NCBI GenBank assembly: GCA_017433725.1
Contig: JAFRGQ010000098.1
Coordinates: forward strand, 62,001 to 126,000
Direction of reading: 5' to 3'
Length of the DNA: 64,000 nucleotides
Origin: Lachnospiraceae bacterium
GTDB lineage: Bacteria > Bacillota > Clostridia > Lachnospirales > Lachnospiraceae
Shown: positions 1,861-3,268 of the stretch, one piece after another
Numbering within the stretch: the stretch's first letter is position 1
Layout of the letters: each line of letters starts with the position of its first letter
The notes under the pieces: generated by a model
The model's database searches: none
What the model was told of the DNA's origin: nothing
The model's input: only the letters and a program-made list of their open reading frames with translations
Position numbers and translations under genes: made by a program

Positions 1861-1908
1861 GTGAAGAGCATCCTCCGGAAAACGCTCCAGAATGGAGAAA
1901 TACTTTGA
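1861..1908 (+). CDS. Putative 15-codon leader peptide overlapping the HPr-LDH start
   Basis: GTG at 1861 follows a strong ribosome site (AGAGGAGG, 1844-1851) at 9-nt spacing and reads MKSILRKTLQNGEIL. It stops at TGA 1906-1908, which overlaps the TTG start of the next gene (1905-1907) as TTGA, the geometry of translational coupling. The downstream gene's own GGAG (1894-1897) lies inside this ORF and can pair with CTCC at 1885-1888. Ribosomes translating the small ORF would open that hairpin. No homology is claimed; the ORF is short enough to be chance, but the good ribosome site and exact overlap argue otherwise. Confidence 0.45.
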   Translation: MKSILRKTLQNGEIL

Positions 1909-3206
1909 AATCATTTATTTATGAAGTAGCAAACGATCTCGGTATCCATGCTCGTCCGGCGGCAAATCTTGCTCAGGCATGCGTCAATCTCGCTTCTGCC
2001 ATCACAATTAAGTGCGGCGATAAAAAAGCGAACGGCAATAATGTTCTTCAGATCCTCGCACTAAATGCAAAGCAGGGCGCACAGCTCGAGATTTCAGCTG
2101 AAGGCGGCGATGAAGAAGGTGCTATCGAGGCAATCAAGTCTGTTCTTGCCGACGAATTCAGCAAAAAGAAGAAAGTTGATATTCTTAAGATCGCTTTCTT
2201 CGGCACAAAGGATTATGATCGTCTGTTCTTCAGCGAGCTTGCAAAAGATAAGGGCGAAGGCACATATAACTGCGATATCAAGTATTTCAGCACACGTCTT
2301 ACACCTGAAACAGCCGGTCTTGCAAAAGGCTACGACGCAGTCTGCATCTTCGTTAATGATGAAGCTCCGAGAGAAGTTGTTGAGACACTCAAAGAGTGCG
2401 GCGTAAAGCTTATCCTTCTCCGCTGCGCAGGCTTCAACAATGTTGATCTTCAGGCAGCTAAAGAGTGCGGCATCACAGTAATCCGTGTTCCGGCTTATTC
2501 ACCGTACGCTGTTGCTGAGCATGCAATCTCCATCATCACATGCGCTAACAGAAGACTTCACAAGGCTGTTCCGAAGGTCAAGGACAACAACTTCGCACTC
2601 AGCGGACTTCTCGGCATGGACCTTCACAACAAAGTTGCCGGTATCATGGGCACAGGTAAGATCGGACAGTGCATGGCAAGAATCTGCAAGGGATTCGGCA
2701 TGACAGTTATCGCTTGGGATGCTTTCCCGAATCAGGGTCTTGTGGACGAAGGCCTTCTTACTTATGTAACGAAGGATGAACTCCTTGCAAAGGCAGACCT
2801 TATTTCTCTGCATGCTCCGCTTATCATGGGTGAAGGCGGAACATATCATCTGATCGATGCAGCAGCTATCGCTAAGATGAAAGACACAGCAATGCTGGTC
2901 AACACCGCTCGCGGCGGCCTGATCGACACAGAAGCTCTGATCGATGCTCTGAAGACAGGCAAGTTCCACGCTGTAGCTCTTGACGTTTACGAGGGTGAGG
3001 ATGCCAACGTTTACACAGATCATTCCGATGATTATCTGCAGCACTCCATTACAGCAAGACTGCTGATGTTCCCGAACCTTGTTCTGACATCTCATCAGGC
3101 ATTCTTTACACGTGAGGCTCTTCAGGCTATCGCTGCTGTAACACTTGAGAATGCACGTAACTTCAACGAAGGCAATCCGCTCGGATTCGGCGAGTGCAAG
3201 GCATGA
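1905..3206 (+). CDS. HPr phosphocarrier domain fused to D-lactate dehydrogenase
   Basis: The 433-residue protein has two parts. Residues 1-88 are an HPr domain: GIHARPA carries the PTS phosphorylation-site His15 and Arg17, and the position of regulatory Ser46 is Asn46. After a lysine-rich linker (87-90), residues 93-433 are a D-2-hydroxyacid dehydrogenase closest to D-lactate dehydrogenases. That part has an NAD-binding GTGKIG motif (249-254) and catalytic Arg336 (NTARGG), Glu363/365 (VYEGED) and His397 (SHQAFF). It would reduce pyruvate to D-lactate with NADH in the cytoplasm. The start is TTG with GGAG seven bases upstream. Regular, strongly biased codon use suggests high expression. D-LDH activity is a family call; any role of the HPr part, such as PTS-linked control, is inference. 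Confidence 0.9.
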   Translation: MKSFIYEVANDLGIHARPAANLAQACVNLASAITIKCGDKKANGNNVLQILALNAKQGAQLEISAEGGDEEGAIEAIKSVLADEFSKKKKVDILKIAFFGTKDYDRLFFSELAKDKGEGTYNCDIKYFSTRLTPETAGLAKGYDAVCIFVNDEAPREVVETLKECGVKLILLRCAGFNNVDLQAAKECGITVIRVPAYSPYAVAEHAISIITCANRRLHKAVPKVKDNNFALSGLLGMDLHNKVAGIMGTGKIGQCMARICKGFGMTVIAWDAFPNQGLVDEGLLTYVTKDELLAKADLISLHAPLIMGEGGTYHLIDAAAIAKMKDTAMLVNTARGGLIDTEALIDALKTGKFHAVALDVYEGEDANVYTDHSDDYLQHSITARLLMFPNLVLTSHQAFFTREALQAIAAVTLENARNFNEGNPLGFGECKA

Positions 3207-3243
3207 GCATGACATAAGTCGAAGTTCATACTGATTTTTTAGG

Positions 3244-3268
3244 CCGCTGCCGTAAGGCAGCGGTTTTT
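3244..3268 (+). terminator. Rho-independent terminator after HPr-LDH
   Basis: CCGCTGCC-gtaa-GGCAGCGG, a perfect 8-bp GC-rich stem with a tetraloop, is followed by five T. It lies 38 bases past the stop. Confidence 0.93.

Follow-up and report, generated by a model that had tools for sequence, protein, structure and literature searches.

An HPr–D-lactate dehydrogenase fusion protein that may place lactate formation under the direct control of sugar uptake

The fusion gene and its two domains

The window analysed here is a stretch of 64,000 nucleotides from the draft genome of a Lachnospiraceae bacterium (G000; 2.66 Mb, 98 contigs, 76.8% complete), and it contains a gene in which an HPr domain is joined to a D-lactate dehydrogenase (D-LDH). 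A preliminary description of this DNA had proposed such a fusion, and our analyses confirm it as one open reading frame (ORF) with Pfam and NCBIfam profile matches above their cut-offs. The coordinates of the gene, its domains and its key codons are summarized in Table 1. A GGAG Shine-Dalgarno sequence ends 7 nt upstream of the TTG start codon, and an ATG, GTG or TTG is kept at position 1 in all 17 full-length fusions that we collected (ATG in G302).

Table 1. Features of the HPr–D-LDH fusion locus in the window
Feature	Position	Strand	Basis or remarks
Short inverted repeat GCTCCAGAATGGAG containing the Shine-Dalgarno sequence	1884..1897	+	Upstream of the TTG-started fusion gene
HPr–D-lactate dehydrogenase fusion gene	1905..3206	+	Single ORF, TTG start, 433 aa
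HPr domain, residues 1-85	1905..2159	+	PF00381 and PDB HPr matches
His15 codon, HPr phosphorylation site	1947..1949	+	In GIHARPA; invariant, 17/17
Arg17 codon	1953..1955	+	Invariant, 17/17
Asn46 codon at the HprK serine position	2040..2042	+	14 Asn, 2 Arg, 1 Asp, 0 Ser (n=17)
Linker, residues 86-93, Lys-rich	2160..2183	+	Lys88 in 14/17, Lys89 in 15/17
LdhA-type D-lactate dehydrogenase domain, residues 94-433	2184..3203	+	5z21 match, PF02826, PF00389
Arg336, catalytic Arg by homology	2910..2912	+	Alignment to D-LDHs; invariant, 17/17
Glu365, catalytic Glu by homology	2997..2999	+	Alignment to 5z21 and 3wx0, and family pattern
His397, catalytic His by homology	3093..3095	+	Alignment to D-LDHs; invariant, 17/17
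Hairpin and T run, intrinsic-terminator-like	3244..3268	+	Directly 3' of the fusion gene, judged by eye

The N-terminal part of the protein matches the Pfam family PTS-HPr (PF00381) at residues 4-82 with an E-value of 2.5e-22 (79.2 bits, cut-off 23) and the NCBIfam family TIGR01003 (PTS_HPr_family) with a score of 69.8, above the curated threshold of 47.9. Its first 88 residues also match HPr structures among the PDB sequences (e.g. 3le1, E 2.3e-14), the nearest solved HPrs being 3le1, 3le5, 1pch and 1rzr. The earlier assignment of these residues to HPr is thus borne out, and the GIHARPA motif with His at position 15 and the Asn at position 46 are both present as claimed; a check of whether residue 46 is always different from Ser gave the same answer in every full-length fusion. 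The fused protein has no IIA or enzyme I domain detectable with Pfam. Since the HPr domain ends near residue 85 and the D-LDH match starts at residue 94, the linker between them is only about 8 residues long.

The remainder of the protein matches the Pfam families 2-Hacid_dh_C (residues 210-399) and 2-Hacid_dh (within residues 122-425), and its best matches among the PDB sequences are named D-LDHs, with a full-length match to 5z21 from residue 94 onward (E 1.6e-96). The structures 5z21, 3wx0/5z1z and 5z20 are those which we take to be the D-LDHs of F. nucleatum, E. coli and P. aeruginosa, respectively. The active site had been described as Arg336, Glu363 and His397, of which Arg336 and His397 stand, while alignment to 5z21 and 3wx0 makes Glu365 likelier than Glu363; both positions are Glu and both are invariant across the 17 fusions. 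The catalytic roles of Arg336, Glu365 and His397 are assigned by homology to D-LDHs, in which the catalytic Glu lies five residues past the Asp of a DVYxxE pattern. Judged from these alignments, the domain is a complete LdhA-type D-LDH with an intact active site, and it is predicted to reduce pyruvate with NADH. VanH and the NCBIfam D-LDH equivalogs were also considered, and their cut-offs were missed (vanH_gen, 212.6 of 540; PRK12480, 192.4 of 579); by these scores the dehydrogenase is a D-LDH relative outside those named NCBIfam groups and is not VanH.

Opposite the fusion gene, the window contains an antisense ORF (2499-3215 on the minus strand, 238 aa), and antisense frames of 452-530 aa are found in the loci L067, L069, L071 and L077. 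These long antisense ORFs are most likely an artefact of codon usage.

Occurrence, origin and selection of the fusion

Our analyses have identified the full-length fusion in 15 of the 42 genomes of the genus, where truncated copies also lie at contig edges in G333 (residues 71-433) and G328 (a 61-residue fragment). In a sample of the order it is present in at least 2 of 295 genomes (G000 and G274) and in a sample of the class in at least 1 of 391 (G000), among the matches listed, and in both samples some stand-alone matches starting at residue 68-88 were not inspected individually. The genus of G274 has the fusion in 1 of its 2 genomes, the other carrying a stand-alone LDH without HPr. A contig scan with two short peptide patterns identified at least 64 HPr loci, 3 of which are fusions (one from a Lachnospiraceae metagenome-assembled genome, one from RUG14046, titled Ruminococcaceae, and one from UBA3316, titled Lachnospiraceae). 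The 17 full-length fusions compared throughout comprise the 15 from the genus together with those of RUG14046 and G274; for comparisons between genomes of the genus, the 15 genomes with full-length copies, the truncated G333 and the fragmentary G328 make up 17 fusion-bearing genomes, which are set against 25 others. The HPr–LDH fusion is rare: as to how widespread it is, a question raised with the preliminary description, it is real and recurs in one genus, and it is rare in the samples of the order and class. An assembly chimera, a frameshift artefact or chance is excluded, because the 17 full-length copies lie on different contigs of different genomes.

We also searched plasmid records, in which the best 8 of 2712 matching records all begin at residue 78-96 of the fusion protein, so that these 8 plasmid matches are to the LDH part only; in 4 of the 2712 records a single location accounts for 80% or more of the query. 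Stand-alone LdhA-type D-LDHs with 45-48% identity are found on contigs classed as viral in IMG/VR (L140, L141 and L172-L179).

In a phylogenetic tree of the LDH domain, 18 fusion rows (including the truncated G333) form one clade (100/100) against 30 stand-alone rows, of which 26 are different. The 17 fused HPr domains likewise form one clade (100/98) against 53 free HPrs, in a tree built on few columns and with long branches. Several subgroups are common to both trees (viz. G329/G305, G314/G335, G300/G316/G307 and G320/G334). This agreement between the two trees is as expected for one fusion inherited as a unit, and the sequences of both domains fit a single fusion event. Two free HPrs, L090 and L108, fall together with the fusion clade (97/85; L108 on a very long branch), and both have His15 and Asn46; the neighbours of L090 include, by eye, a PTS membrane component, an alcohol dehydrogenase and a sugar kinase. 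An unfused HPr adjoining an LDH, as expected of a precursor state, was not found among the 61 other HPr loci (L079-L139), where the only dehydrogenase ORF (E 4.9e-18) belongs to L084 and is separated from the HPr by about 3 kb. A motif filter shows an HPr ORF in 42 of the 64 loci, and a profile HMM recovers 57 distinct HPr domains from L079-L139, all of them in frames shorter than 340 codons.

The ratio of nonsynonymous to synonymous changes (dN/dS) in the HPr domain is below 1 in 68 of 68 usable pairs, with a median of 0.25 (68 of 136 pairs were usable, the remainder being saturated or outside the set limits). The LDH domain, with a median of 0.10, is also below 1, the ratio of the HPr domain being about 2.5 times higher. 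By this measure the HPr domain is under purifying selection, and the fusion copies have diverged down to 70% identity. These results bear upon the possibility that the fusion is a neutral accident in which the HPr part has no function. Its presence in few species and the lack of a conserved operon partner would agree with such an origin, but one event has persisted over this range of divergence in 15 of the 42 genomes that represent the genus, as well as in two others, and this persistence, together with selection upon the HPr part, makes a neutral fusion highly improbable.

Docking face of the fused HPr and its genomic setting

The stretch His15-Ala16-Arg17 is kept exactly in all 17 fusions while much of the HPr domain varies, and the hydrophobic patch formed by V47, L48 and L51 is also invariant. 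The docking positions, chosen after the interface in the E. coli complexes, vary less than the remainder of the fused HPr (mean entropy 0.63 versus 1.25 bits, permutation p 0.003), a comparison made within the fusions only and, like the Fisher tests given below, upon 17 fusions that form one clade and are not independent samples. The basic character of the docking face has been lost: there is no Lys or Arg at positions 24, 27, 45, 46 and 49 in 15 of the 17 fusions (including that of the window), versus 1 of 61 free HPrs with His15 and 0 of 29 free HPrs without it. Gln24 is found in all 17 fusions and Val27 in 15, and over 11 chosen positions the fusions have a mean charge of 1.35, versus 3.33 for the free His15 HPrs. 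Because all of the fusions share one origin, this change represents one evolutionary event and not 17. Efficient exchange with enzyme I is not to be assumed once the basic face is gone, and with its docking face remodelled in this way the fused HPr is probably not an ordinary carrier.

It has to be considered, nevertheless, that the fused HPr might work in sugar uptake like any other HPr, the LDH being a passenger, as the invariance of His15, Arg17 and the hydrophobic patch would allow. This reading is quite improbable in view of the remodelled face, the other HPrs in the fusion-bearing genomes (in G000, one with His15 and Lys46 stands beside fruR-fruK-fruA-like genes) and the clumsiness of a carrier that would be about 190 kDa in size if it is tetrameric like its relatives.

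The LDH domain also shows features peculiar to the fusions. At 35 positions, 17-18 of 18 fusions share a state that occurs in at most one tenth of 25 stand-alone relatives, and among these positions are insertions at residues 117, 282-283 and 309, in columns that are gapped in 23-25 of these 25 relatives, the insertion at 309 being absent from G274. These insertions could represent plain divergence of the clade.

The absence of Ser46, by which the preliminary description had made the proposed sensor blind to HPr kinase, does not distinguish the fusions, since 26 of 61 free His15 HPrs also lack it (15 Lys, 5 Arg, 4 Asn and 2 Gln) and the kindred L090 and L108 have the same Asn46. Ser46 is present in every one of the 29 free HPrs that have no His15. 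Among 33 HPrs from the genus and from G000 itself, 20 have Glu, Asp or Asn at position 15 together with Ser46, 8 have His15 with Lys46 and 5 are of a GLHLKP type, a tally biased with respect to paralogues in that the 30 genus loci are the best-scoring ones with at most one per genome. The GLHLKP-type HPrs of the genus (among L142-L171 and L001-L003) combine His15 and Lys17 with Ser46. From these sequences the two jobs of HPr seem to be largely split between paralogues, one kind being Crh-like and serving HPr kinase and the other consisting of His15 carriers. The fusion falls on the carrier side, and it is likelier that the absence of Ser46 was inherited than that it is peculiar to the fusion. 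Two other proteins of G000 may be recorded here, viz. an HPr-like protein (L005, contig C10; 34.5 bits to PF00381) without the His15 motif in which the DAKSIMG of the Ser46 region is kept, and a second protein with a partial match to the HPr-kinase C domain (L008, contig C36; 39.4 bits, 304 aa).

The window's genome contains enzyme I (its N domain), HprK and other HPrs, as well as a fruA-like gene recognized by eye. The enzyme I N domain is found in 14 of the 17 fusion-bearing genomes of the genus versus 22 of the 25 others (Fisher p 0.67), which gives no enrichment, and it was not found in the fusion-bearing drafts G320, G325 and G333 (75, 91 and 88% complete). Each fusion-bearing genome has 4 to 9 matches to PF00381, the fusion usually being one of them. 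On contig C38 of G000 (L044, 9566-15496), the fruR-fruK-fruA-like genes are followed, by eye, by a 3-phosphoglycerate-dehydrogenase-like gene and the His15/Lys46 HPr mentioned above, which is thus a further HPr beside a gene of the D-2-hydroxyacid dehydrogenase family; in contig C21 of G324, about 600 bases separate a dehydrogenase match from an HPr match.

Enzyme I takes its phosphate from PEP and releases pyruvate. The HPr domain could accordingly be a scaffold that docks enzyme I and places the LDH by the pyruvate so released, with or without passage of the phosphate onward to EIIA. The retention of His15 and Arg17, the pyruvate-forming chemistry and the presence of enzyme I in most of the fusion-bearing genomes would all suit a scaffold, but the basic residues that aid docking to enzyme I (as in the E. 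coli complexes) have been lost, pyruvate also has other enzymatic sources and it diffuses fast, and on balance we regard this explanation as improbable.

No second match above 200 bits was found in the fusion genomes of the genus, the next best being one of 195 bits in G314. The L-lactate/malate dehydrogenase family PF00056 exceeds its cut-off in 1 of the 17 fusion-bearing genomes versus 14 of the 25 others (Fisher p 0.00095, kinship uncorrected); the 16 fusion-bearing genomes without it are 71 to 97% complete, so that its absence from them is uncertain. Judged from these matches, the genomes seem to have no LdhA-type enzyme other than the fusion, and because no second match exceeds 200 bits and PF00056 is scarce, the fusion is probably the main fermentative LDH of the cells.

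The neighbourhood of the fusion gene gives no indication of an operon link to PTS genes, as no PTS domain was found in the 22 Pfam-scanned ORFs out of the 65 that are at most two ORFs away from the fusion across 18 loci. An alpha/beta hydrolase and an M24 peptidase, which lie 3' of the fusion in the window, are each near the fusion in 10 of 18 loci (a count that includes the genome of the window) with differing orientation, and the loci compared reveal no conserved operon partner. A gene of the fructan/sucrose-cleaving family GH32 adjoins the fusion in G329 (L060, 9922-11739, minus strand) and G307 (L065, 2-1216, plus strand), and a relative of it does so in G305 (L061, 9513-11357, minus strand). 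In G317 a gene of the histidine phosphatase superfamily (L068, 6943-7668, minus strand) starts a few bases past the fusion on the same strand; as a candidate SixA-type partner it was rejected, being CobC-like by score and reaching 31 where the SixA cut-off is 74.5, and none of the ORFs flanking the fusion in the other compared loci clusters with it. An inverted repeat containing the Shine-Dalgarno sequence, similar to that of the window (Table 1), precedes 8 of the 17 fusions including the window's, all 8 of which start with TTG. Its arms show paired changes, from CTCCA/TGGAG to CTCCG/CGGAG in G307, and a shorter CTCC/GGAG form is present in G314 and G335; the predicted folding is weak (five folds, z from -1.81 to 0.26), and L039, L068 and L094 have the repeat pattern at other places too.

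A possible phospho-switch and its relation to known systems

We infer that a built-in regulatory domain is the most likely reading of the HPr part. In the form that we tentatively favour, the HPr module would act as an intramolecular phospho-switch upon the fermentative D-LDH of this lineage. Enzyme I would phosphorylate His15 when PTS sugar is scarce; the phosphorylation would shift the HPr face upon its own LDH domain by way of the short linker; and this rearrangement would alter the allosteric state of the LDH tetramer. The dephosphorylated form, present while sugar is flowing in, would be the active one, a direction suggested solely by analogy with the pyruvate kinase of V. vulnificus, and with no Ser46 the switch would be deaf to HPr kinase. 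Two published observations bear on this scheme. Dephosphorylated HPr binds and stimulates V. vulnificus PykA (PMC5987630), and a tetrameric structure with allosteric behaviour is described for the D-LDHs of F. nucleatum, P. aeruginosa and E. coli (PMC4230899).

A face stripped of its basic residues speaks for docking upon the protein's own LDH and against efficient carrier function, and equally permits a purely structural role. The main rival to the built-in switch is, accordingly, that HPr is now a module by which the LDH tetramer is assembled or stabilized, with its former docking face packed upon the LDH, His15 and Arg17 being structural or relics. A charge-poor and hydrophobic docking face, a short linker, fusion-specific LDH insertions, an HPr domain higher in dN/dS than its LDH and three drafts without a detected enzyme I are all compatible with such a module. 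It does not readily account for the exact retention of His15-Ala16-Arg17 in all 17 fusions amid a variable domain, nor for the replacement of His15 in 20 of the 33 sampled HPrs of the genus and of G000, from which it follows that the HPr fold does not need His15. We consider a structural module unlikely, though it deserves to be taken seriously. Loss of the basic face may also mean that enzyme I phosphorylates the fused domain poorly.

The preliminary description had interpreted the protein as a sensor of PTS flux, and this interpretation is supported in part: the HPr is genuine with His15 and Arg17, the D-LDH is complete, and since enzyme I and HprK occur in the same genome, partners for the proposed circuit exist; the portion that made loss of Ser46 a feature of the fusion is not upheld, and the missing basic face calls for caution over the proposed reporting of PTS flux by His15~P. 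Free HPr has been reported to bind central-carbon enzymes, but proof of such contacts in vivo is difficult. That the two proteins are naturally fused, and have stayed so across part of a genus, suggests a functional link from the state of the PTS to the making of lactate, and the single protein lets this idea be tested by one point mutation (H15A). If the phospho-switch reading is true, it would account for the way in which these bacteria time their lactate production, and HPr would be a receiver domain of a metabolic enzyme.

The HPr domain of the fusion is like free HPr (PtsH) in its PF00381 and TIGR01003 profile matches, His15 and Arg17, and differs in being joined covalently to a dehydrogenase, in Asn46 and in the absence of the usual basic face in 15 of 17 copies. 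Control of Bacillota HPr through HprK and CcpA needs Ser46, which none of the 17 fusions has. With the LdhA-type D-LDHs (5z21, 3wx0/5z1z and 5z20) the fusion has in common a full-length match and the Arg/Glu/His active site, whereas the N-terminal HPr domain and the short insertions are found in the fusion only. Crh is an HPr-like protein that has lost His15 and kept Ser46. Like the fusion it divides the two HPr functions between paralogues, and the fusion keeps the opposite half, with His15 kept and Ser46 lost.

HPr is also a domain of larger proteins in the PTS multiphosphoryl transfer proteins (FruB/FPr and IIA-HPr-EI), where its partners are IIA and EI, all devoted to phosphotransfer, while the partner in the fusion is a metabolic enzyme; in the accessible part of PMC2405797, the multidomain PTS proteins have HPr joined only to IIA and EI. 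Titles and opening abstracts listed in text searches contained no description of an HPr–LDH fusion, in a coverage that leaves out most subscription journals, so that a prior mention is possible. The closest functional parallels are the diffusible HPr regulators, in which HPr acts on central-carbon enzymes (viz. V. vulnificus PykA, PMC5987630, and E. coli PykF, PfkB, NagB and Adk, as stated in PMC8167557). Those are non-covalent pairs, whereas the fusion would be covalent and would act on LDH; we infer that what is new is HPr as a regulator made covalent. More tentatively still, an HPr that has given up its carrier docking face could have become a dedicated intramolecular His-phosphorylation switch, by which the state of the PTS would be wired covalently into the final step of fermentation on what is apparently the only LdhA-type LDH of these bacteria.
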